NCBI GenBank assembly: GCA_026770575.1
Contig: MU657184.1
Coordinates: 488,807 to 517,051 of the forward strand
Direction of reading: 5' to 3'
Length of the DNA: 28,245 bases
Origin: Pelagophyceae sp. CCMP2097
Lineage: Eukaryota > Sar > Pelagophyceae
Shown: piece by piece, positions 5,217 through 22,387 of the stretch
How positions within the stretch are numbered: position 1 is the stretch's first letter
How the letters are laid out: every line of letters begins with the position of its first letter
Notes under the pieces: model-generated
Seen by the model: only the letters and a program-made list of their open reading frames with translations
Databases searched by the model: none
Told to the model about the DNA's origin: nothing
Translations under genes and position numbers: made by a program

Positions 5217-8200
5217 ATGGACGCGTTCCTCGCGCCGCGGACCAAGCGGAACCCGGAGGGTTGTCCGAAGAGCCCGCCAGAAGTAAAGAAGAAAAAAGGC
5301 GCGCCGCGGAAAAAGGTCGAGGCCCCTTCGGACGCGCAGAAAAGCGCCTTTGGGTCGTACTTCGGCCGCCGGAAACCGCAAACGTTCGTCGCGGCACGGA
5401 CGCTCGACGCCGCGCTTGACGAGGCCGAGGAGATCCAGCGCTCCGAGGAGCACCTCGCGCGGGCAAAGAGGGCCGCGGCCAAGGCCCTCGGTCGCGCGGA
5501 CGGCGCAGCGGTGGGCATGGCCGGTGCCGCAGCGGCAGGCACGGCCGGCGCGCGGCCGCTCTCGCCGATGTGCACAAACGTCCCGGACGCAAAGGTGCGA
5601 TTCGTCAACGCAAAGGTACAATGGGACGCGGCTCGCGCGTCGAGAGCCGAGTCGAGGCTCGAGGAGGCTGCACCCCCGTCGGAGGCCGTCGCACAGACCG
5701 AGGTTGCGCCCAGCGACGAGAACGACGAGGCTCCGACGCCAACGACGAAAAAGGGTCGCACACACGAGACGGCCGCGGCCGCGCCGCCGTCTAACGTGCA
5801 TCTGATCGAGGCAACCGCGCCCGTGGGCTCCAAGCCGCAGCGGCAGCTGACTTTTGGCGCGCGCGGCGTGCTGACGCAGCCGGCGGCGGCTCCGAGGCCG
5901 CCGCACCCGGGGCTGCTCGCGGCGCCCGACGCGTCGGACCCGCGCGACACGTCGCGCGCGCTGCGGCTCCAGTTCCAGCAGCCGACGCCGCCGGCGTCGC
6001 CGCGGCGGCGCGGCGCGGACGTGGGCGCGCCGTCGTTGAGCCAGCGGTCCGACGCTTTCTCGTTCGGCGACGACGAGGCCGCGCTCCTCGCGAGCTGCGA
6101 CGCCGCCATCGGCCGCCTCGAGCAGGGCACGCAAGCCGCGATGAGCACCGCGCAGCGGCGCGTCGCGACGGCCGTGCGTCAGCCGCTTTTATTCATCAAG
6201 TTCGAGGGTCCACTTCCCCCATCGAGACGACGGCCCCGCGTGTGCGCCGCGCAATCTTCGAAAGACCCCTCCGCCGGTAGGCGGTCAACGTGCCCACGCT
6301 CGTCGTCGCGGGCGCGGGCTCTGGCAAGACGCACACTATCGTGCAGCGCGTCGTTCAGATGTGCAACTCCGGCGGTGCGTGCCTTCCCCGGCCGCCCGAC
6401 GTCGATAGTGACGCGCCTGGCAGGCGTCGACGCGCGCGAGGTGCTGCTCGTCACGTTTACGAACAAGGCGTGCGACGAGCTCGCGGAGCGCGTCTCGACG
6501 GCCCTCGGCGCCTCCAAAGGGCCCGCGCCCGTCGTGAAGACGTTCCACGGCCTGGCCAATTTCTGGGTCGGCCAGTACTGGCGCTTCCTTGGCTTTTCCT
6601 GCCGGCCCGTGCCCCTGACGACGGACGCGGCGCAGCGCAAGTTGATGCTGAAGACGCTTCGCGAGGCCGTCGTCGGCCCGCTGCGGCTCCGCCGCGCGGC
6701 GCGCGCGCTCAACCTCGTGCCGCCGCCGCAGCCGACGGGCGCCGCCAGCACGGCGGGCGTTTCGGCGGCGCCGCGTGCGCGTGTGGGCTGGTCGACTGTG
6801 CTGGCGGCGTTTCAAGAGCGCTGGCCCGAGACGTACTCGGATCTCGTCGCGCGCGCTGAAAAGGCGGTGAAGAAGGCCAAAGCGGCGAAGAAGAAGAAAG
6901 TGAAGGGCGACGCGGCCGCCGCGGCCGCCGCGGTCGAGGCGGCGGCCGAGGCCGAGGCGGACGAGCTCTTCGAGCGCGCCGTGCGCCACGAGCTGGGGCT
7001 GGAGGTCTACCTGCACGTGACGGGCCGCGAGCGCGTTTCCAAGAAAGACGATGACGACCTCAGTGAAAAGTGGCTCACGAAGCAATGCGCCGACGAGTAC
7101 CTGCGCCTCGTGCGCAAGGCTCGTAGCGCAGGCCACGCGCCGGCAGACTACTTGCCGACGGAGGCGCGCGTCTGGACCGCCTACGAAGCGGCGTTGAAGG
7201 CAATGGGCCAAGTGGACTTTGACCTCATGCTCCACCTCTTCCTCCATTTGTTAAAAGGCAACTTGCACGCGCGGGACCGCTTCGGCTCGACGCACCGCGT
7301 CTTGGTCGTCGACGAGTACCAGGACAACTGCGCCGTGCAGACGGATATCCTCCTCGAGATGGTGGCAGCGACGCGCGGCCGAGCCGCTGTCACCGTCGTG
7401 GGGGACGACGACCAGTGCATCTACTCGTTCCGCGGCGCGGAAGTCGGCAACTTCGAAAGATTTGCAAAGCACTTCGACGACGCGGGCGGCGCGGCGTCGA
7501 AGAGGTTCGTGCTCGAGGATAACTATCGCTGCTCGGGCCAGATCCTGCGCGCGGCGGCGGCGCTGCTGAAGCGCTGCAAGCAAAGGTCGACGGACAAGGT
7601 TCTAAAGGCGACGCGCGCGACCGGCGACGCGGTGGTCCTGTTCCAGGTCGACGACGACGCGCGGCAGGCCCATCTCATCGCCGACGAGATCGCCAAGCGC
7701 GCGCCGCGCTATTCGGACTGCGCGGTGCTCTTCCGCTGCTTCAACTTCGGCGCCTTTGGGCGCCTGCACTCCAAGCTCGAGCTGGCGCTGGCCCAGAGGT
7801 CGATTCCGTACCGCGTCGTCGGGTCCAAACCCGTCCTGGCGACCAAGGTGGCGCTGGACGTGGCCGCGTACATGTCGCTGGCGCACGCCAGCGACGGCGT
7901 CGCCTTTCAAAGAGTCTTCAACACGCCCCCGAGACGCCTTTCCGTGGCTGTTTTTCAAGCTGTTGAGAGAAACGCCCAACTCTCCGGCGCCGCCGACGTC
8001 GAGGCCGCCGCGCGGCGAGTCGTCGAAACGGGCGTCGGCGTGACCAGGGCGCAGCGCGACACTTTGAAAAGCTACTTGGATGTCATCGGGCACTTGCGCG
8101 TCGAGCTGCGCGCAAACGACTGCGCGACCCTTGTCGACATCATCTGGAAACGCGCCGGCTTCGAGGCGCACGCCGCCAAGCGAGCGGCCAAGGCGCAACA

Positions 8201-9143
8201 GAAGCAAGAGGACGCCGATGACGACGACGAGCCGGACGACGACGACGAGGCCAGCGAGGCCAGCGAGGACGACGCGCCGCCCAAGAGCGCCATCAAGGAA
8301 ACCGACGCGCTCCCGGACGTTGCACCCTGCGTCCGCGATCGATTGTGTCGGGGGATCACTGATCGAGCCTGAAGCGTCGTCTAGGCGGTCGTCGCGCTGC
8401 GTTGCGCGGCGCTGGTGCACGTCCGAGAGTGGTGCGAGGCACACGCGCCGCCGGACGAGGACGCGGCGGGCCCGCCGTCGCTCTACGACCTTGCGAAACG
8501 ACAAGTGCTGAAGTCACGGCCCGGCGACGGCGCGGCGCCAGGCGAGGCGGTGCTGCCGCGGCACCTTGCCGACGACCTCTCGACGCACCTCGGCGTCGGC
8601 GCGGGCGCTTTGGCCGCCTTCCTCTCGAAGATTTCCCTGCAGTCGGCCGTGGCCGAGTCCGGCGGCGACGACAACCGCGTGGTCATTTCGACTATCCACC
8701 GTTCCAAAGGTTTGGAATGGTCAAATGTTTTTGTGCCTTTTTTCAACGATACGTTCATGCCCTGCGGCTTCCAGCCGCCGCGAGAAACGCCGCACACGCG
8801 CCACGCGCCCGAATGCCGCGCCAGGCGCGACGCGATGGCCACGTGCGGCTGCGCGCAACGGTTTCCGACCGCGGACGATGGTGCTGAGGCTCGGCATTCC
8901 GACGAGGAGCGGCGCCTCGCGCACGTGGCCGCGACGCGCGCGCGCGATTCGCTCGTCTTCGTCTCGCTCTCGCGCATGTGGGACCCGAAGAAGCGCGAGC
9001 ACGTGGACTTGATGGCGTCGCCGTTGCAAAAAGACCTCGAGGCGCACGCTCGAATAGATATCATCTCGCTCGTCACAAAGGCCGCGGAGAGGCAAGCCGA
9101 CACCGAAGACGGACCCGGAGGCCTGTTCCACGAAGAGTGGTAA
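5217..9143 (+). CDS. UvrD/Rep-superfamily DNA helicase, SRS2-like
   Basis: Four exons: 5217-6173, 6281-6374, 6424-8318 and 8385-9143, giving 1234 aa. It is an SF1A 3'-5' DNA helicase, in eukaryotes most like SRS2, which strips RAD51 from DNA. Motifs in order: Walker A AGAGSGKTHT (about 329-337), Ia VTFTNKACDEL, KTFHGLANFW, II VDEYQDNC (about 645), III GDDDQCIYSFRG (about 677), IV LEDNYRCSGQI, V STIHRSKGLEWSNVFVP (about 1084) and VI ERRLAHVAATRARDSLVF (about 1157). The first 320 residues are a low-complexity, basic extension, and a Lys/Ala-rich insertion follows Walker A. Intron 1 (6174-6280) and intron 2 (6375-6423) flank the Walker A exon. The third donor may be 8319 or 8331. The last exon carries motifs V and VI, so the protein looks intact. 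Confidence 0.88.
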
Positions 9144-9286: not shown

Positions 9287-11647
9287 TCACACACACAACA
9301 GATGACATGAGAGGGCGGCCCTGGAGCGGAGCCGCGTGCGGCGGTTGGCGCGGCTCGGGGCGGCAGCCTTTGCGTCTGCGGGCCGCCTCCGCGGGGCGGC
9401 TCTGCTGTGTTGCCGGCCCTTTTGCGGTGGTGGCGGTAGGGGTTGGAGGGCGGTGGCCTCAGTCAACATGTGAATGCCATCAATTCCGAGAAACTTGTAG
9501 GCCCAGATCGTCTTTTTCAGCGATTTTTGGTCGAAGGAGACCATCTTCGACTCTGCGGCGACGACTTGGAAGAGCTCTGGCGCCGGGATTCGCGCCTCTG
9601 CAAAGGCCCAGACGAGATGCGCCAAAGTGCGACCGTTGAACGTCTCCATCTTCAACACTGCCTCCTCCGCAACGGCGGAAAAGAGCTTCTGGGCGCGGAC
9701 GCGCGCGTTTGAATACGCCCACGCGCTGCTGGCCAGCTCAAAGTGGTTGAACGTTTGCAGTTTTGTTTGCGCCTCTTTTGCGACCATGTCAAAGAGTTGC
9801 GGAGCGTCCGCGTCGGCGCGCGAGTACGCCCACAGCGTGTTGGCCAGCTCCTGGGACGTAAAGTCCGCCATGCGGCCCGCCGCCGCCGCCGCGATGGCGG
9901 CGAAGAGAGCCGGGGCCTCGATGCGCGACGTGGAAAACGCCCAAGCCGTGATGCTGAGTTCCTGCGAGTTGAAATGAGCCATGCTTTTCGGTGCCGCCTG
10001 CGCCACGGCCTCGAAGAGCTCGGGTGCCGAAAAGCCGACCTTTGCAAAGGCCCAGACAGCGTTGCAGAGCTCTTGCGACGTAAAGTCGTCGATCTTCACC
10101 GCGGCCTCGAGAGCAATGGCCTCAAAGAGTAAAGGCGCCACGACGCCGACCTTTGAAAACGCCCACGCCGTGTTCGCCAGCTCCTGCGCCTTGAACCCCT
10201 CCATCTTCTTGGGGGCTTGTGAAGCGACGGAATTGAAGAGGCGCGAGGCCTCGTCGCCAGCTTTGGCGAACGCCCAAACAATGTTCGCCAGCTCCTGCGG
10301 CTTAAACGTCTCGATCCGGCCCGACGCCTCTGAAGAAATGGCGTCGAAGAGCGTCGGCGCCCAGACGCACGCTTTCGAAAACGCCCAGGCCGTGTTCGCC
10401 AGCTCTTGCGCGTTGAACGTTTCAATCTTGCCCAGCGCTTCCGCAGCGACGGCCTCGAAGAGCATGGGCGCCCGGAACTCCGCGGTGGCAAAGGCCCACG
10501 CCGTCGTCGCCAAAGCCTGCGAGTCGAAGGCGGACGTCGTCGTCGACGCGCGCAGCGAGACGCACCTGAACAGCGCCGGCGCCGGAACGCCAGCCTTTGC
10601 AAAAGCCCAAACCGTCTTCGCCAGAGCCTGCGGCGTCAAAGCCGCAATGTTCTTCACCGATTCGACCGCAACGGCTTTATATAACAATGGCGCTGAAACG
10701 CCCGCCGTCGAAAAAGCCCAGACGGTGTTGGCGAGCTCCTGCGGCTTGAATGCCGACATGTTCGCCGCGGCTGCCGCCGAAACGGCGTCGAACAGTTCCG
10801 GCGCTGAAACGCCCGCCGTCGAAAACGCCCAGACAAAGTTGGCCAGCGCTTGCGGCGTAAACGTTTGGACCTTGATGACCGCTTCTACGGCCATGGCTTC
10901 AAATAAAGCCGGCGCTGCAAAGCCCGCCCTCGCGAAAGCCCAGGCGGTGTTCGAAAGGTCGTGCGCGTTGAACGTATCCATCTTCGTTGTTGCTTCGGCG
11001 GCGGCGGCCTCGAACAGCACCGGCGCCTCGACGCCCGCCGTGGCGAACGCCCAAACCGTGTTGGCCAGCTCCTGCGCGTTGCCCCCCGCGGCAGCGGCCG
11101 GCGCCCGCTCGGCGACGGCCTCGAGGAGCTGCCGCGCCGCGCCGCCGGCCCCGGGGCCGGCCAGCTTGGCGGCGCCCCAGCACGCGTTGGCGATCTCCCG
11201 CGGCCGCCAGCCGGCGACGGTCTCCGCCGCGCGCCGCGCGAGGCTTTGGAAGCGCGCGTCGAGCGCGGCGTCGACGGTTTCGAGGCGGGCGAGGCGGTGG
11301 ATCGCCGTCGCGAGGTTCACGTCACTGAACTCGGCCCCTTCCTCCTCGAAGAGCGCCAGGATCGCGGCGCCGCTCGGGCAACGCACGATCTGCTTGTTGC
11401 GCTCCTTGAACGCGTCCAGCGGCGGCGGTTCCGGACCGGCGGGCGGCGCGGCCGCCGGACCGGGCCCGGGGACCGGCGGCGCGCCGTCGACGGGCGGCGC
11501 GCCGTCGACGGGCACCGTGCCGCCGCGCACCGCTTCGTTTCCGGCGCAGAAGCGCCGCGCCTGCCGCTGGCGCAGCGGCCGCGGCAGCGCCAGGCACCGC
11601 GCGCGGGCGCCGCGGCCGGCTGCCGCAAGGAGCGCGACGCCCCGCAT
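9287..11647 (-). CDS. Helical-repeat (37-aa, WAF-type) protein, probably organellar RNA-binding
   Basis: A single exon of 786 aa. The N-terminus is rich in Arg, Ala and Leu with few acidic residues (MRGVALLAAAGRGARARCLA), like a mitochondrial presequence. From about residue 189 to 744 there are some 14-15 tandem units of 37 residues. The consensus is F-x-x-Q-E-L-A-N-T-x-W-A-F-(A/S)-x-A-G-V-x-A-P-x-LF-x-A-(V/I)-A-x-E-A. This two-helix unit resembles the heptatricopeptide (HPR)/RESC6-like alpha-solenoids of apicomplexans and kinetoplastids, which bind organellar RNA. I see no RAP or nuclease domain at the C-terminus, which is basic and low-complexity. Its closest relative in the window is the gene at 20242-22074. 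The RNA-binding role is inferred from the family. It converges on the helicase gene with a 143-bp gap. Confidence 0.82.
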   Translation of the reverse strand: MRGVALLAAAGRGARARCLALPRPLRQRQARRFCAGNEAVRGGTVPVDGAPPVDGAPPVPGPGPAAAPPAGPEPPPLDAFKERNKQIVRCPSGAAILALFEEEGAEFSDVNLATAIHRLARLETVDAALDARFQSLARRAAETVAGWRPREIANACWGAAKLAGPGAGGAARQLLEAVAERAPAAAAGGNAQELANTVWAFATAGVEAPVLFEAAAAEATTKMDTFNAHDLSNTAWAFARAGFAAPALFEAMAVEAVIKVQTFTPQALANFVWAFSTAGVSAPELFDAVSAAAAANMSAFKPQELANTVWAFSTAGVSAPLLYKAVAVESVKNIAALTPQALAKTVWAFAKAGVPAPALFRCVSLRASTTTSAFDSQALATTAWAFATAEFRAPMLFEAVAAEALGKIETFNAQELANTAWAFSKACVWAPTLFDAISSEASGRIETFKPQELANIVWAFAKAGDEASRLFNSVASQAPKKMEGFKAQELANTAWAFSKVGVVAPLLFEAIALEAAVKIDDFTSQELCNAVWAFAKVGFSAPELFEAVAQAAPKSMAHFNSQELSITAWAFSTSRIEAPALFAAIAAAAAGRMADFTSQELANTLWAYSRADADAPQLFDMVAKEAQTKLQTFNHFELASSAWAYSNARVRAQKLFSAVAEEAVLKMETFNGRTLAHLVWAFAEARIPAPELFQVVAAESKMVSFDQKSLKKTIWAYKFLGIDGIHMLTEATALQPLPPPPQKGRQHSRAAPRRRPADAKAAAPSRANRRTRLRSRAALSCHLLCV
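9418..11083 (-). repeat. Tandem 111-bp coding repeats
   Basis: About 15 consecutive 111-bp units encode the 37-residue repeats of the gene above. The nucleotide units have diverged, but all keep the bases encoding TxWAF and APxLF. They are long enough for unequal crossing over. Confidence 0.8.
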
Positions 11648-11927: not shown

Positions 11928-13366
11928 TCAGAGCCTTCCGAAGAACTGTTCCAGCTTGTCGCAGCTCGTCATCTTGTGGTTCTTGGCCTGGTCCAAGCCC
12001 TCCTCGCGCTGCGCTTTTGTGCGCCGGGATCGGGCCTGGTGCATCAATCGCCGCTGCATCTCGCGGGCGGCGTAGCAGTCGTAGCGCATCGTCGTCTCGA
12101 ACTCGTTGGCCACCAACGTGTCGACGCGCTGCAAAGAGTGCGCGTCGCGGGCGTACTTTGACGAAAACGTGTCGGTGACGTAGTACGGGATGTCGGCGGC
12201 GACGCCTCGAGACTTGGTCACGCGCTGGATGCGGTACTTTGCAGACTGGTCAAGCGCAAACGCGGGCTCGGCGTACTGCGCCGGATTGGAGAAGAAGGCG
12301 AACACGAAAAAGAGCAGCAGCGGCAGCAGCTGCACCAGAGACACGCTCTGCGCGTCGGCGCGCTGGTGCTGGTGCTGCTGCTGCTGCCGCTGCCGCCGCG
12401 AGTCGACGCCGAAGAACATGTTGAAGATCTCCTCCGGCGTCACCTCGTGCTCCTGCCGCCGCTGGAACGGGTGCTGTTGCCGCTGCTGCTGGCCGCCGCC
12501 GCCCTCGTCGTCCCCGCCGCCGAGGTCGTACTGCCGCCGCCGCGCAGCGTCGCTCAGCACCGCAAACGCGGTGCCGATGGCCTTAAAGGCCTCGTCCGCC
12601 TTGGGCGCGCGGTTCTTGTCGGGGTGGAACTTTAGAGCGAGCTTGCGGTACGCCTTTTTCAGCTCGTCGTCGGTGGCGCGCCTCGTCACGCCCAAAACCT
12701 CGTAGTGGCCGCTCCGCCGCAGGCTGATGATGCGCGCCACCGCCTCGGCCTGCGCGGGCGTGTACGGCGCCGCCGGAGCCTTGGGCGCCTCCTTGGCCGC
12801 CTCGGGCTCCGCCTGTCTCGCTGTCGCTCTTCGCTGCGGCCCCGGGGCAGAAGAAGACCTACGCCCGGCGGTCGGCGGCGGCGGCGCGCACAGGGACATT
12901 GCTCTGCGCCACACGCCTCGCTCTGCGTCGTCGTAACTCCCGTCGACGTCGACGTCGGCCCTCGGAACGGGACCACGGCCGCTCCTTTCCGACGTGGCGC
13001 ACCCTTTCCGACGTGGCGCCGGCAACGCACGGCGTCGACGCGTTCGGCGAATCCTCGGCCGCCGCGAATTCACGTGTTGCACGCCTGTCGACAGCGCGTG
13101 AGCCGTCAGCATCGTCGTCGCGCGAGGGCCGTTCCGGCCTATTGGACGCGGCTTTGCACGATTTGATGTCGGCGACGCCGGGCAGCTCGTCGTCGGCGAG
13201 GCGGATGGACTTGTCGCAGTACTTAATGGCCATTGCGTACTTGCCTGCGTTTGTGGCTCGATGGCGGCGCCATTCTCTCGCAACTGAAACCCGCAGACGC
13301 ACCCTCGGAGAGGAACTTGGCCGCCAGGTCCTTGCATTTTAACGCCTCGTCCCGGTTCGCCTCCAT
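11928..13366 (-). CDS. DNAJB12/DNAJB14-like ER membrane J-protein
   Basis: Three exons on the minus strand: 13366-13303, 13244-13031 and 12858-11928, giving 402 aa. It starts [19 protein letters not shown], matching the N-terminus typical of DNAJB12. A Lys/Asp-rich linker leads to a J domain at about 141-205 ([20 protein letters not shown], catalytic KFHPDKN). A Gly/Gln-rich stretch and [11 protein letters not shown] follow, then a transmembrane helix ([16 protein letters not shown], about 265-285), and a DUF1977-like tail with [13 protein letters not shown]. Relatives sit in the ER membrane with the J domain in the cytosol, recruit Hsp70 and serve ERAD. Introns: 13245-13302 and 12859-13030, both with GTGCGT donors. 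It shares a 156-bp divergent promoter with the glycosyltransferase. Confidence 0.9.
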
Positions 13367-13522
13367 CCGGGCCCGCGCACAAACGCCGCAGAGGCCAGCA
13401 GTGCCGCGTCCCGTCCGAGGCGAAGCGAGGGGTCCGTTGGGAGTGTGGAGTGCGTTGCACGCAAGTGCAGAAGCGGGCTCGAAAAGCCAGTTTGCGAAGT
13501 GCGAGGTGATCGGCGTCGCGCC
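13367..13522. promoter_or_regulatory. Short bidirectional promoter
   Basis: Only 156 bp separate the divergent start codons of the J-protein (13366, minus) and the glycosyltransferase (13523, plus). Both promoters must overlap here unless the 5' UTRs extend into the neighbour. No TATA-like box stands out. Confidence 0.45.
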
Positions 13523-16500
13523 ATGGTCGCCGCGCGGCCTGCGCACGCGGGCGAGGCGAAGAAGTACCCGTGGAAGTCGTGGTGGCTGCGATGGCTTCTT
13601 TTCGCGACGATGCTCGTCGTAATACTCCGCCTTCTCGTCGCCGCTCCGTGAGCAACACCCTCGCAGCCGCGGCCGCGCGCGGCGCCGCAGGCCCCCGCGG
13701 GCGACGCCGCCTCCGAGTGGCATCGGGGCCATTCGAGGGCCTTGCCGAGGGCCTCTGCAGCCCGCGGCTCCGCGGCCGGGGAAGGCGCTTTGCGGCCGGC
13801 GATCTCGCCGCACGCTCTCGCCGACGGCGCCGTTTAGGTCGGTCGCGACGTCGCAGCCCATGCAGTGGATGCAGACGGGCAAGGTGGGCTCGCGCAGCGA
13901 CGCGGCCGATGCGGCCGAAGAGTCGGCGCCAATCGAGTGCCCTAGATGGGACGGTGCGCCCCGCCGCTTTGTGGAGGCCCTCAGGGACCGCCGCAGACAA
14001 AGAGGCACATCGGCGTGGCGTGCGCACGGCACCACAGGGCCGCGTCGACATTTGCTGCTCGAAACGCCGCGGCTAGGCTCTGGCGGCGAGATCAAGCAGC
14101 CGCACGGGCCATGGAAGCGTGCCTCGCCGGCCGCGTCAAACGTCTACCTCTACGCCGTCGTCGCCTCGACGGCCGAGGCGCAAGCCATGTTGCCCCACTT
14201 CCTCGACCTCTACCTGACAAAGGGAGGCCAGTCCGGCACTAAAGGCCTTGCTTGCAAGTTCAAATGAACCGTGCGCGCAGGCATCCCGGCGAGCAACGTC
14301 GCCATCACGCTGCACGAGGCCAAGGAACACAACCAGCACACGGAGGGCATGATCGCCGTGCGTTGGCGGGGCGTGCTTTGGCTTGGCGTCCGTCGGAGCA
14401 TGTCGGCAAGCGACGTGCGATGCAGGTCCTCGACGCGGCCGGCGTGTACTACGACGTCTGGGTCGGGACGTTCACGTCGGACACCAAGGCCTGGCACCGC
14501 AACAAACTCGTACGCTCCCGTGTCGCCGCTGCTGGGCTTTGTACGGCCCCGTGCCGATGGCCACACCCCGCCAGGTCGCAGAGACGCTGGGCGACGACGA
14601 TTGGATCATCGTCGCCGACATTGACGAGCTGCACCAGTTCCCCGGCCTCGACCAGGGCGCCGCCGCGCGCAACGGCTCGGCGCCCGCTTTCAAGGACCCG
14701 ACGCCGTGCGTGGGCTTCCCAACGCAATGCATGGGCTTCTTGGGGCCTGCCAAGACACGTGGCACCGGCATCCCTGGCTCGCTTTGTGGCGCCAAAATCC
14801 CAGGCGTCTCAGGATCGAATCGTACCTGCGCCGCGCCGAGAGCAAAGGGTTCAACTACGTCCTTGGGGAGTTTGAGGTGAGATATTTGACGCGCCTTCCG
14901 GCGGCCTTTTCGCGACGCGGTCTTTAGGACCGCGTGGGTTTGGGCGGCGAGCTGCGGCACGTGCTGCCTCTGGACCCGAAGGACGCGGCGACGTCGATCG
15001 AGAGCCAGTTCCCGCTGCGATGCTCCATGACGCAGTGGACCAAACCGCAGTCGGGCTGGCAGAAACTCGTCCTCCCGGCGGCGGAGACGACCAAGGTCGT
15101 CGCCCACAAGGCGTACTTGTCTATCCACCGCAGCGCCCATTATGTGAAGCGAGGGTCGTACTTCCGCGCGGCGTTGGCGCTGCTGCGCTTCGATTTTTCA
15201 AAGTACTCGGCTCGATGGCCGCGGCGCGACGCTAAGCAGATGCTGCGCGTGGAGCACTACAAGTGGGTGGCTGGGCTGGTGCCTTATTTGGACAGGCGCG
15301 TCCGTACTTATGAGCAGTGCGGCATGCTCTGGTCCTACGAGTCGGCTGCTATTATTGAGCGCCTCGAGCAGTACCGCGGCCGAATCTGCACGACGTGCGG
15401 CGAGCTCGCCTGTGCCCGCGCCGCGCCGGCGCGCCGGCGGCGCGTGGCCGTGGTGACGTCTGTGTGGGACGAACACGTCGACGGGGTGTCCATCACGATG
15501 AACCGCGTCGCGCGCTTCCTCCACCGCAGTTCGCACTCTGAAGTCCTCGTCGTGACGCCGCACGACCCGGCGGTGCCGCACCCAGTGGTCAACATGGCCG
15601 AGATTCCCAAGCTCGCTGGCGACTCCCTCCCAATCTTCGCCCTCATCGGCCGAAACGACTACGTCGTCGGCATGCCCCTGGCCGCCACGCAGAAGCGCGC
15701 CCTGATCGACTACGACGCCGATATCTACCACCTCGTCTCGCCGGACCTTTTGGGGTTCTCGGCGCAGCGGTGGGCGCGGCAGCAGGGCCGCTGCGCGGTT
15801 TGCTCGTATCACACGCAGATCGACCGCTACGTGCGCTACTACACGGCCAAGCACTCGTTGCTGGACAGGCTCAAGCCCAGGGTCGCCGTGCAGCGGCTGT
15901 TTGGGTCTTTTTACTCTGGGTGCGACATCGTCGCTGTGCCTAACGACGCCATCGGAGACAAGCTCGTGGCGAAGATGGGCGTGCCGCGCGAGAAGATTGG
16001 GTACTTCCCGAGAGGGGTCAACGTGACGCAGTACAACCCGAAGCGCCGCGACGCCGCGTGGCGCCTCGAGACGCTCAACGCGCGGCCCGACGACGTCGTC
16101 ATCCTCTGGGCCGCGCGCCTCGTCAAGGAAAAGGGCGCCGCGCTTTTCGCCGACGCCATCGCGGCGCTCTTCCGCAACGCCTCGCTCGGCGGCGCCGCGG
16201 GGGCCGACGAGGCGGCTCACGGCGCGTGGCTCGAGGCCCGGACGCGCATCATGATCGTCGGCGACGGCCCGGAGCGCGAGGCCATGCGCTCGACGCTGCC
16301 GCCCCGAATCACGCACTTTATGGGCCACGTCTCCGGCGAGGACCTCTGGCGCGCCTACGCGTGCTCCGACGTCTACTTCTTCCCGTCTCATACGGAAGCC
16401 TTCCCAAACACTTTGCTAGAGGCCCAGGCCAGCGGCCTCACCGTACTCGCGCCGGCGTACTCGGTGAACCGCGACCTCGTTCCGCGCGACGCGGGCCTGC

Positions 16501-18712: not shown

Positions 18713-19069
18713 GAAGGCGATTCTGTGGGCGGCGGCGGGGACCGGGCGACGTGGAGGGCCGCGGCGAACGTTGCTCTTCGTCGTCAACTTGCGCAAGGAA
18801 CTTGAAAAACAAAAGTTTCGGCATTCACGTTCGGGTCTTGTCGACTCTTGTCGCGTTCGGGGCTGGTTCGGGTCCTCGCAGTCCCTGTCTACCGTCCAGA
18901 AGGGCCAGGACCCGAGCCCAGGCGCCGCCGCGAGCGAGAGAACGAGTGCCATCGATGATCCTCAGTTATCCGATGAGGATCCTCTGTCAGGCGGCGTCGC
19001 TCGTCGTTGGGGTCGGGCGCTCCACTCGGTAGAGGTGCGGAGCGACGTCATGCAACGAACGGCCGGCCC
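18713..19069 (-). other. Intergenic region and alkyltransferase 3' UTR
   Basis: 357 bp between two minus-strand genes. It holds the 3' UTR of the alkyltransferase gene, including the SECIS-like fold at 19004-19058. It also holds a strong hairpin, GATCCTCA / TGAGGATC, at 18957-18981 with a 9-base loop. The promoter of the two-pass membrane protein must be at its low-coordinate end. An open minus-strand frame continuous with that protein's ATG runs here, but I see no support for translating it. Confidence 0.4.
19004..19058 (-). promoter_or_regulatory. Candidate SECIS element
   Basis: Read on the minus strand, starting 12 nt after the final TGA stop. Helix I TCGTTG (19058-19053) pairs with CAACGA (19009-19004). 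The 5' core ATGA is at 19051-19048 and the 3' core CGA at 19015-19013. Helix II CGCTCC (19044-19039) pairs with GGAGCG (19023-19018). The apical loop GCACCTCTACCGAGT has CC about 12 nt after ATGA, where SECIS elements have AA or, less often, CC. It is short and helix II is imperfect next to the core, so the fold is suggestive, not proven. Confidence 0.4.
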
Positions 19070-20028
19070 TCAGTCGACGACGCGGAGGCGGTAGGGCCCC
19101 GTGATCTTTTCGTCGGCGCCACGAACCTGCGAGCCGTCTCAGCTTCCCGGCCGCCGCCCGCGGGCCTCACCTGTCCTCGCTGCGTCCTCTGGAGCTGCCC
19201 CGCCGCGCTGTGCAGAGGCGTGCGCCGGCGCGGGAAACGGCGCGTGGGGCGCGCGGCCCGGCCGCGGCGACTCACGCGAGCGCGAGCGCCGCCGCGTGCA
19301 TGCGCGGCATCCACTGCCGCCACTCGCCGCCGCGCTGCTTCGCGAGCAGCCGCGGCACCTCCGAGGGTCAGCACCTAAGCGCGCGCGCGTCGCCGAAACC
19401 CCGCGCCGCGGCGTGCACGTCGCCGCAATCCCGCGCCGCGGCCGCGGCGGACGCACGTCTTCGTCGGCCCGCGCCGCCGCACGAGGTCGAGCGTCGCGGC
19501 CCGGAGCGCTGCGTCGCTGGGCGCAGCGCCATCGTCTGGAGGCTCGTCCTGGGGCACCGCGCTCGGCGCCTGCGCGGCCGCGCTCGGCGGCAACGCCGGC
19601 GAAGCAGCCAGAGGCCTCGCCTCGACCCTGCGCCGCTTCCCGGCGCCGTCGGCGCCGCCGCGCGCGGCTTCGACGGCGCCCGTGGCCTCGACGACGCAGT
19701 CAGCAGAAATGCGGCCGTCTGCGTCGTAGGCCACGCCCTCTGCCTCGAGCATTTTGCGCTTCCGGTCCAGCTGCGGACCACCGGTCTCGCCGTGGAAGCC
19801 GCCGAGTTTGCGGTCCGCCGCGACGACGCGGTGTCAGGGCACCGACGCGTCCACGTTGCGCCGCATGGCCGACCCGACGGCGCGAGCGCTGCCGCCGACG
19901 GCCCGGCACACGGCGCCGTATGTCGTCACTTTGCCTCGCGGGACGTTGCGCACGGCCGCGTAGACCTTTTGCGTGTACGGCGTCAGAGGTTTTGTCACTG
20001 ACTCTGGCAGTGGCAACGGCGCCGACAT
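19070..20028 (-). CDS. Alkylguanine-DNA alkyltransferase-DUF3253 fusion, two in-frame TGAs (candidate selenoprotein)
   Basis: Exons on the minus strand: 20028-19457, 19374-19276, 19207-19171 and 19126-19070, giving 254 codons. The N-terminal half is the MGMT/Ogt DNA-binding domain: YAAVRNVPRGKVTTYGAVCR, arginine-finger ARAVGSAMRRN, then VP-TGA-HRVVAADRKLGGFHGE. The TGA (19836-19834, codon 65) replaces the alkyl-accepting Cys of PCHR. An acidic/Ala-rich linker follows, then DUF3253: ALRAATLDLVRRRGPTKT, C, TGA (19370-19368, codon 193), PSEVPRLLAKQRGGEWRQWM, QLQRTQRGQ, ITGPYRLRVVD. The second TGA aligns with the Cys of the usual TICPSE motif. The three introns have consensus ends and matching phases. 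The best reading is selenocysteine at both sites. Nonsense decay, or an ATL ancestor (PWHR, TGG to TGA), is the alternative. The start is the first ATG of the domain frame. Confidence 0.8.
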
Positions 20029-20241: not shown

Positions 20242-22074
20242 TTATCGACCTTGAGCGGCGATGGTTTCGTCTCGGCCTCGCGCCTCAAACAGGGCTTCTT
20301 GCTGGCTGACGTCTGCCGCGCGGGCGCACCCTCCGAACTGAAGCTCGGCTTGGCGCCTGCCAAGGAGCTCCGTCAACGCGTGGTGCGGCGCCTCGTTTTG
20401 GAGGCGCGTGTAGACGTGATGCAGCCGAGAGAGGCCCTCGCCGTCCTTTTCACGAATTGTCGACTCGAGTCGCAACGCAATTTTGTCGAAAAGCGCCGGC
20501 GCCTCGGCGCCCGCGACGGCGTAGGCCCATGCGAGGTCCGCGACGTCTATCGGGTTGAAATTGGCCATCTGCTTCGCCGCTTCCTTTGCAATCGCCTCTA
20601 AAAGCTTTGGCGCCGAAACGCCCGCCGTCGCATAAGCGCAGGCCAAGCAGGCGAGATCTTGCGAGTTGAACAATGAAATCTTGTCCGGCGCCTCAAGAGC
20701 GACGAGCCTGAACAGCAAGGCGTGCGCCACGCCCGCATTCGAATAGGCCATCGTCGTCTTCGCCAAAGCTTGGGGGGTAAACGTCTCGAGCTTCGTTTGC
20801 GCCTCGAGAGCGACGGCTTGGAATAAATCCGGCGCCTCGACGCCCGCCCTCGAAAAAGCCCAGGATATGTTGGCGAGCTCTTGCGACTTGAACGCGATCA
20901 TCTTCTTCTGCGCTTCCAGAGAAATCGTTTCGAAGAGCATTGGCGCCGAAACGCCCGCCGTCGCAAAAGCCCACGCCGTGTTTGCGAGGTTCTGCGGGTT
21001 GAACAATGAAATCTTCTTCGGGGCTTCTGCGGCAATGGCCCCAAATAAATCCGGCGCCTCGACGCCCGCCGTCGCGTAGGCCCAGGCGGTGTTCGCCAAA
21101 GCCTGCGCGTTGAACGCCGCCATCTTCCTCGGGGCGTATGAAGCGATGGCCTCGAAGAGCGGCAGGTTGAACGTTGAGACTCCCGCCGTCGCAAAGGCCC
21201 AGGCGGTGTTGACGAGGTTTTGCGCGTTGAAAGTCGCCATCTTCTTCGGGACCTCTCGTGCGACGGCCTGGAACAGCATCGGCGCCGCCACGCCCGCCTT
21301 TGCAAAAGCCCAGACGACGTTGGAAAGGTCTTGCGAGTTGAACTTGGAAATCTGCCTCGGCGCTTCCGCGCCGACCGCCTTGAACAGCCCCGGCGCCGAG
21401 ACGCCCGCCGTCGCGAACGCCCACACGGTGTTTGTGAGGTTCTGCGGGCTAAAAGTGCCAATCTTCTTTGGGGCCTCTGCCGCGAGAGCTTGGAAGAGGT
21501 GTGGCGCCGAGACACCCGCCGTCGCAAACGCCCACGCGGTGTTTGAAAGGTCCTGCGAGTTGAACGTGGCCATCTTCTTCGGCGCGTCTTGGGCCACGGC
21601 GTGGAAGAGCTTTGGCGCTTTGACGTTGCCGATCTTGGCGACGCCCCAGATGGCGTTGGCGAGGTGCCGCGCCTCCCATTCGGTCGACTCGGCGGCGATG
21701 CTCGAAGCCGCGCGGTCCACGAGCTTGTTCAGCAGCGGCGTCGAAGTCGGCCTAAAAGACCGACCAAGCTTGCCGAGGCGGTGCAGCGACGTCGAAACGT
21801 TGACGTAGTCGTACTCGTGGCCCTTGTTCTCAAATAAAGCGAGGATGTCTGTAGCAGTCGCTTTCTCGAGCAACTCGCGGTTGAGCCGGACCGCCGCCGC
21901 CCGTTTCAGGGCCCACGTCGAGATCATGCAGATCACGGCGCGGCGGAAGCGCCGCGACGTCGATGGGCGCGCTCGACGTACCGCGCCAAGTGCCCTGGTC
22001 ACGTGCGGTGGCCACGGTGCGCTCACCACGAAACCTTCGCCAAACGAGCACGAACTGACCCCGAGTCCGAACAT
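20242..22074 (-). CDS. Helical-repeat (37-aa, WAF-type) protein, paralogue of 9287-11647
   Basis: A single exon of 610 aa from the ATG at 22074; a second ATG at 21927 is possible. The N-terminus has an Arg/Ser-rich stretch (RALGAVRRARPSTSRRFRRA) compatible with organelle import. A leader domain (TATDILALFENKGHEYDYVN, then VSTSLHRLGKL) aligns with ILALFEEEGAEFSDVNLATA in the first paralogue. About 11 units of 37 residues follow (about residues 131-572), consensus FNxQxLxNTAWAFATAGVSA then APxLFxAIAxEAPKKM. Unit 4 carries a two-residue insertion (GVSTFNLPLF). The last units decay toward the C-terminus. As for its paralogue, organellar RNA binding is inferred from HPR/RESC6-type solenoids; no catalytic domain is seen. 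Confidence 0.82.
   Translation of the reverse strand: MFGLGVSSCSFGEGFVVSAPWPPHVTRALGAVRRARPSTSRRFRRAVICMISTWALKRAAAVRLNRELLEKATATDILALFENKGHEYDYVNVSTSLHRLGKLGRSFRPTSTPLLNKLVDRAASSIAAESTEWEARHLANAIWGVAKIGNVKAPKLFHAVAQDAPKKMATFNSQDLSNTAWAFATAGVSAPHLFQALAAEAPKKIGTFSPQNLTNTVWAFATAGVSAPGLFKAVGAEAPRQISKFNSQDLSNVVWAFAKAGVAAPMLFQAVAREVPKKMATFNAQNLVNTAWAFATAGVSTFNLPLFEAIASYAPRKMAAFNAQALANTAWAYATAGVEAPDLFGAIAAEAPKKISLFNPQNLANTAWAFATAGVSAPMLFETISLEAQKKMIAFKSQELANISWAFSRAGVEAPDLFQAVALEAQTKLETFTPQALAKTTMAYSNAGVAHALLFRLVALEAPDKISLFNSQDLACLACAYATAGVSAPKLLEAIAKEAAKQMANFNPIDVADLAWAYAVAGAEAPALFDKIALRLESTIREKDGEGLSRLHHVYTRLQNEAPHHALTELLGRRQAELQFGGCARAADVSQQEALFEARGRDETIAAQGR
20358..21684 (-). repeat. Tandem 111-bp coding repeats (second locus)
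   Basis: About 11 units of 111 bp encode the solenoid of the gene above, one of them 117 bp long. The units are more alike at the nucleotide level than those at 9418-11083. Confidence 0.75.
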
Positions 22075-22387
22075 ATTGGACACGTTCTACGACGACCCTT
22101 AAAGCTTCGCAAGCACGCCTCGAGTTTCAAAGGCGACGTTCTCCGAGTCGCCACGGCGACGCCCGGCGTGGGCCGATCGGGCTGCTGCTTCGCAGACGAC
22201 CTGGCAATCGACGTAGGCATGGCAATCGACGACGGCGACGCGACTCTTCGACGCGGCGGGCTCCCAAGACCATGTGCATCGCCACGAGGACCCGACGCCG
22301 AGCGACGATTCTTCGGTCATTGGTTCGGTGCTCGTTACTTTGGTTCGGGGTTCGTCCTTTCGGCGCGCGTTCCCTTGGGCGCGCTTC
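22075..22387 (-). promoter_or_regulatory. Upstream region of second repeat gene
   Basis: A 313-bp gap between two minus-strand genes. A short direct repeat, GGCAATCGACG, occurs twice near 22202-22230. No exon is seen. Confidence 0.3.

Follow-up and report, generated by a model that had tools for sequence, protein, structure and literature searches.

Introduction

The closest described relatives of the gene reported here are DNA repair alkyltransferases that carry selenocysteine (Sec). In the available parts of 'The algal selenoproteomes' (2020), a repair alkyltransferase termed 'MDP' is given as a Sec family in algae (PMC7539508), and one Sec MGMT apiece is recorded in the accessible portions of a GOS survey (PMC2398784) and of a 2026 review of prokaryotes (PMC13188914). 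For Aureococcus, 59 selenoproteins have been predicted, and a figure legend of that study includes 'MTR, methyltransferase' (PMC5917014, consulted in part). The chemistry has an engineered precedent: the sections available of a study of human AGT describe a form with Sec145 that shields E. coli from MNNG, as a Ser form does not, and in which N137 is no longer required (PMC4150793).

Here we describe a gene within a 28,245-nucleotide stretch of contig MU657184.1 of Pelagophyceae sp. CCMP2097 (positions 488,807 to 517,051; hereafter the window, to which all coordinates refer unless a contig is named) that joins an alkyltransferase domain to a DUF3253 domain and has an in-frame TGA in each. Judged from its sequence and genomic setting, it is probably a genuine selenoprotein of 254 residues with two selenocysteines. 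The original prediction for this locus implied that a Sec alkyltransferase would in itself be new, a claim that is not supported in view of MDP in algae and the Sec MGMT of the GOS survey (PMC7539508, PMC2398784).

Results

The gene occupies positions 20028–19070 of the minus strand and comprises four exons separated by three GT-AG introns, the spliced frame holding 254 codons plus a stop. Exon 1 (19457–20028) opens with the ATG at 20028 and encodes the alkyltransferase domain and, after a linker of low complexity, the first residues of DUF3253, as placed by frame and Pfam; exon 2 (19276–19374) starts GTGCTGACCC and carries the second in-frame TGA together with the DUF3253 core, its junction with exon 1 fitting the ends (…GPTKTC) of the two database proteins P0023 and P0024. 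The DUF3253 wing (GQLQRTQRGQ) is supplied by exon 3 (19171–19207; frame, canonical splice sites and DUF3253 alignment), and the C-terminus of the domain (GPYRLRVVD) and the stop by exon 4 (19070–19126; frame and Pfam). Intron 1 (19375–19456, 82 nt) is consistent with both P0023 and P0024; its borders read AAGAC/GTGCGT … TTAG/GTGCTGACC, such that the joined exons would give AAG ACG TGC TGA CCC (K-T-C-U-P). Introns 2 (19208–19275, 68 nt) and 3 (19127–19170, 44 nt) are predicted purely from frame and splice sites.

Both domains are recognized well above their Pfam gathering scores. The alkyltransferase DNA-binding domain (PF01035, residues 18–99, 19732–19977) matches with an E-value of 2.4e-25, scoring 88.6 bits with Cys written at the TGA and 82.4 bits with X, against a cut-off of 27; DUF3253 (PF11625, residues 173–252, 19079–19512, spanning exons 1–4) matches at E 2.2e-18 and 66.7 bits against a gathering score of 22.1, with positions 2–80 of the 81 in the profile covered. 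Writing X at both TGAs leaves E-values of 2.1e-23 and 7.1e-17, respectively. The domain matches run through both in-frame TGAs, so that coding sequence is conserved on each side of each: codon 65 (19834–19836, within VP-U-HRVV), at the site of the alkyl-acceptor Cys, and codon 193 (19368–19370, within KTC-U-PSEV), immediately following Cys192, are the two proposed Sec codons, whereas a third TGA, codon 255 (19070–19072), lies two residues beyond the end of the DUF3253 match and acts in our model as terminator. The coordinates, the splice-joined frame with two TGAs and the conserved sequence beyond both of them, all put forward in the original prediction, are borne out by this model and by the Pfam matches.

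A protein search with the DUF3253 part returned, among 31 candidates, only P0023 (JGI; three member sequences, longest contig 964) and P0024 (two contigs, longest 1013), both of which are this gene. Each starts at Met92 and ends …RRRGPTKTC; unspliced DNA beyond that point would instead give KTCVRRGRG. The two ends agree with splicing of the template and a stop immediately past Cys192, and the Met92 start likewise fits an in-frame stop upstream. We infer that the underlying contigs are transcripts. It is unlikely that contigs happening to end at KTC account for both termini. P0023 is without 17 residues of the exon 1 linker (about 19570–19640), reflecting either an allele or a spliced piece of 51 nt. 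A wider search for a homologous fusion scored 7994 protein candidates, yielding 22 matches, none with PF11625 among its precomputed domains; genome contigs gave one distant locus and viral contigs none. This absence carries little weight, since Sec fusions would go unseen in libraries whose proteins are broken at TGA.

The window also holds two large proteins, at 9290–11647 and 20245–22083 (both minus), built of tandem repeats of ~37 residues (LANTAWAFATAGVSAP...) and both matching FAST_1 and DUF1601, which in appearance we take to be octotricopeptide-type organelle RNA-binding proteins; one of these genes ends ~0.2 kb ahead of the alkyltransferase gene. A UvrD/Rep-type helicase lies at 5217–9140 (plus) in two adjoining frames (PF00580, PF13361), probably a single gene interrupted near 8370–8415 by an intron or a break in the frame. 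A protein with DnaJ and DUF1977 at 11931–14051 (minus) has a make-up presumably like that of DNAJB12/14-type membrane co-chaperones, and a CAG/GCT-rich, low-complexity stretch at 12306–12394, weakly matching several Rfam families on both strands, is likely the Gln-rich part of this DnaJ protein.

The codon 65 site was compared with 13 alkyltransferase homologues chosen from 79 matches. All 13 have the Cys of PCHR at the codon 65 column, confirming by alignment the earlier claim that the first TGA falls on the acceptor Cys of MGMT/Ogt proteins, and N58, H66, and E97 are invariant in the same alignment; matched by motif, these would correspond to human N137, H146, and E172. Solved relatives of the domain include 1mgt, 4zyg, and 1wrj, among others. 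With UGA in place of the classical acceptor Cys of PCHR, the gene falls outside the classical Cys alkyltransferases; by analogy, however, a Sec in place of the acceptor could serve, and a description as working like an alkyltransferase would stand. Nor does the gene belong with the alkyltransferase-like (ATL) proteins, in which a non-nucleophile, usually Trp, replaces the acceptor Cys: codon 65 is TGA and not TGG. That human AGT functions with Sec145, according to the parts of that study available (PMC4150793), suggests that Sec65 would be chemically sound as an alkyl acceptor. A genome-wide search with PF01035 found this gene only (E 2.2e-22, with one TGA), the next match having an E-value of 0.42, so that codon 65 left unread would leave the organism without a findable alkyltransferase, although the search could overlook a gene broken up into small exons.

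The counterpart of the codon 193 TGA in PDB entry 2ns0 is, by alignment, the Cys of 'SICPSDVAR'. For a broader sample we turned to Pseudomonadota, the phylum of the Kosakonia locus L035: among 398 genomes, 53 have DUF3253, giving 55 matches, the best-scoring 30 of which (L036–L065) were aligned. By a scripted recount, Cys occupies the codon 193 column in 18 of these best 30 of 55, and the other 12 have Glu in four, Ser in three, and Asp in two, followed by Gly, Ala, and Thr. The Cys that the original prediction regarded as conserved in DUF3253 is thus present in 2ns0 and in 18 of 30 loci, but is not invariant. Bacterial loci L040 and L044 have a vicinal 'TCCPSEV', which suggests that Cys192-Sec193 would replace a Cys-Cys pair that occurs naturally.

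The surroundings of bacterial DUF3253 were surveyed at 10 Pseudomonadota loci through 20 flanking frames (one per side, chosen for length and codon bias); DUF599 occurs at five loci and DUF218 at three, and no repair family was named among the 20 frames. With five alkyltransferases as queries, no alkyltransferase frame turned up within 1.5 kb of DUF3253 at any of the 30 bacterial loci. The word DUF3253, alone or with selenocysteine, was not found in the open-licence papers searched.

How often would two nonsense changes land on these two sites by chance? Only nine other sense codons of the gene lie one substitution from TGA; the gene is so GC-rich, and near-TGA codons hence so few, that two random nonsense changes would strike both sites about 1 time in 55. 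The original prediction placed both sites correctly and called the coincidence very unlikely; the figure is weaker than that wording implied. Taken alone, the positional argument is suggestive but not overwhelming, and the case rests on the summed evidence.

Downstream of the gene, a SECIS-like hairpin lies at 19002–19061 (minus), consisting of helix I, a quartet of AUGA (19051–19048) opposite CGAC (19015–19012), helix II, and the apical loop ACCUCUACCGA, in which a CC lies 12 nt past the AUGA. The AUGA begins 18 nt beyond stop codon 255, placing the element 588, 204, and 18 nt downstream of the UGAs at codons 65, 193, and 255, respectively. One SECIS normally serves every UGA upstream of it, and SECIS-dependent decoding usually needs a UGA-SECIS spacing of more than 18 nt; the 18-nt spacing falls below this usual need and would explain why codon 255 acts as a stop. 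A first scan of 870 nt for TGA, GA, and a single hairpin with unpaired AA or CC returned two hairpins, of which the one with AA or CC is this element. Folded to minimum energy, the 70 nt past the stop form helices I and II, separated by an open quartet region and capped by the apical loop. The stability of the hairpin is unremarkable (z 0.25; 114 of 200 shuffles fold as well or better).

Two further grammars were applied to the window. The looser one (AUGA, spacing of 10–13, at least 8 pairs) finds four candidates, all of them on the minus strand. The strict one, which bounds the energy of each helix and allows a spacing of 10–14, has limits that were set after viewing the reference elements so that those of L014 and L021 pass; across both strands it has a single match, the SECIS-like element, and it has a match in 32 of 4000 dinucleotide shuffles of the 3' stretch, or ~1 in 125. 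Across 277,854 bases of the same genome (both strands counted, from loci that overlap and were partly picked as Sec genes), there are nine distinct matches; five, the present element among them, neighbor genes whose presumed Sec site is a TGA. Of eight reference loci, four have an element by the strict grammar (L001, L014, L015, and L021) and L007, L013, L016, and L020 have none; the elements of L014, L015, and L021 are our own predictions from the same kind of grammar. The Rfam model SECIS_1 is silent on the SECIS-like element, a silence that counts for little with us, as the glutathione peroxidase (GPx) candidates L014 and L015, scored as isolated 92-nt stretches, escape the model too; the Rfam SECIS score of the L001 element is 28.3 bits, below the gathering score. 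Four SECIS candidates of this genome are divergent and align poorly in MAFFT, and ACCUCU in the apical part is common to L014 and the window element.

Elsewhere in the genome, SepSecS is present (contig C174, E 7.0e-45), and in each of the four GPx genes found, the matched stretch contains a single TGA, which occupies the Sec position. A tandem GPx pair (G000:C111:58327-60409) has a TGA at the Sec position in each gene and a SECIS-like element for the second only. The MsrA gene L020 reads A-L-G-U-F-W (PF01625, E 7.4e-35 with Cys written at the TGA), and the Rdx gene L007 (G000:C13:88004-88516) has C-T-S-U at the CxxU place plus another TGA in the matched stretch, either in an intron or a second Sec. 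The putative Sec sites of two more loci are weak, depending mainly on motif: L021 has C-L-G-U-F-W in an upstream exon that is without a Pfam match, and L001 has a frame with ADTGGUTAE whose AhpC-TSA match (E 0.0019) is below the cut-off. The MsrA piece L029 has a TGA away from any Sec site, perhaps in an intron, and neither of the two AhpC-TSA_2 genes above the cut-off has an internal TGA. The original prediction named a genome with no SECIS and no Sec machinery as what would count against it; a SECIS-like element and SepSecS were found, and a search for tRNA-Sec gave no match in the genome among the 53 of 5768 candidates scored.

Discussion

The reading that we prefer is the one at the core of the original prediction, Sec at both sites, which draws support from the SECIS-like element, from the Sec-type genes and SepSecS in the same genome, from the position of the gene as the sole PF01035 match, and from P0023 and P0024. 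In this model, a SECIS in the 3' UTR would cause UGA codons 65 and 193 to be read as Sec, and the UGA at codon 255, a mere 18 nt ahead of the SECIS, would terminate translation. The first domain would present a selenolate instead of the alkyl-accepting thiolate, the alkyl group of O6-alkylguanine passing to Sec65, beside which Asn58, His66, and Glu97 are retained. The second, a small DUF3253 domain whose fold we take to be a winged helix, is probably nucleic-acid-binding, and its Cys192-Sec193 pair would most likely form a selenenylsulfide, serving as a redox switch or keeping the protein reduced.

We favor a redox switch on Cys192-Sec193. A bolder version has the alkyltransferase escape suicide, the alkyl-selenide on Sec65 being cleaved or exchanged with the help of Cys192-Sec193 such that each protein could repair many lesions; we hold this to be decidedly improbable, though if true it would make DUF3253 a new selenium-dependent redox domain.

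Among readings that dispense with two selenocysteines, the likeliest takes codon 65 alone as Sec, translation stopping at codon 193 to leave a single-Sec alkyltransferase of 192 residues, with DUF3253 a relic or made conditionally. A single-Sec alkyltransferase is the state catalogued in algae, as far as the accessible parts of that catalogue go (PMC7539508), Cys occupies the DUF3253 site in only 18 of the best 30 of 55 matches, and P0023 and P0024 do end at codon 193, weak evidence given that gene callers do not read Sec. Against it, the 61 codons past the second TGA lie across three exons with canonical introns and match DUF3253 to its end, the TGA stands at the Cys column, and a single SECIS would normally serve all UGAs upstream; we regard the one-Sec reading as unlikely. 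That the gene is a pseudogene in decay, its two TGAs being nonsense codons and its hairpin fortuitous, is very unlikely: chance placement at both sites (~1 in 55) and the 17-residue linker deletion of P0023 could be enlisted for it, but both domains score far over their cut-offs, all introns have canonical sites, the SECIS-like element adds a factor of about 1 in 125 by shuffling, and no second alkyltransferase gene was found in the genome. A selenium-free reassignment or general readthrough of UGA (as Trp or Cys, for instance) would cover the in-frame TGAs here along with the off-site TGAs of L029 and L007, yet it leaves unexplained why all four GPx genes have one TGA per matched stretch, at the Sec position; SepSecS is present, moreover, and the gene itself ends in TGA at the end of its domain, making such a code change extremely unlikely.

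Should two-Sec decoding hold, several consequences follow. Most selenoproteins of known function are redox enzymes, and a selenolate as a stoichiometric acceptor of alkyl groups from DNA would be unusual. With two selenocysteines on a supposedly single-use protein, one may ask what makes the expense worthwhile, or whether the molecule turns over. For DUF3253, a Cys site at which Sec is worth having would be a first clue to its chemistry, and the placement of the SECIS allows a test of how one UGA stays a stop while two are recoded.

In comparison with known systems, MDP shares with the present gene the character of a Sec alkyltransferase; our gene is recognized by the UGA at the acceptor site, and the Sec of MDP is assumed to lie at that same position. 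Where MDP is named in the available parts of its source, no second Sec, DUF3253, or fusion is mentioned, and the term 'DUF' is absent from the main text (PMC7539508). MGMT/AGT, Ogt, and the C-terminal part of Ada have in common with the gene the domain, the PxHRV motif, and the invariant N58, H66, and E97, whereas the present gene differs in having UGA for the acceptor Cys and a C-terminal DUF3253, with no room for the N-terminal domain of Ogt or Ada. DUF3253, of which 2ns0 is an example, is matched as a domain over nearly its full length, but the present gene has UGA at the second Cys and is fused to an alkyltransferase. Thioredoxin reductase ends in GCUG, with adjacent Cys and Sec; the pair resembles Cys192-Sec193 in its adjacency, although it belongs to a different protein and position, and we claim no sequence relation. 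More than one Sec, or the fusion of two Sec domains, is likewise a feature of the Emiliania huxleyi GST-MSRA fusion, of two-Sec SELENOW and SELENOJ, and of the Sec-Sec PDI_e, which, as described in the accessible parts of that survey, are without a DNA repair alkyl acceptor and without DUF3253 (PMC7539508). Set beside these systems, the Sec in DUF3253, the fusion, the two-Sec state, and the vicinal Cys-Sec pair look new within the open-licence papers searched.
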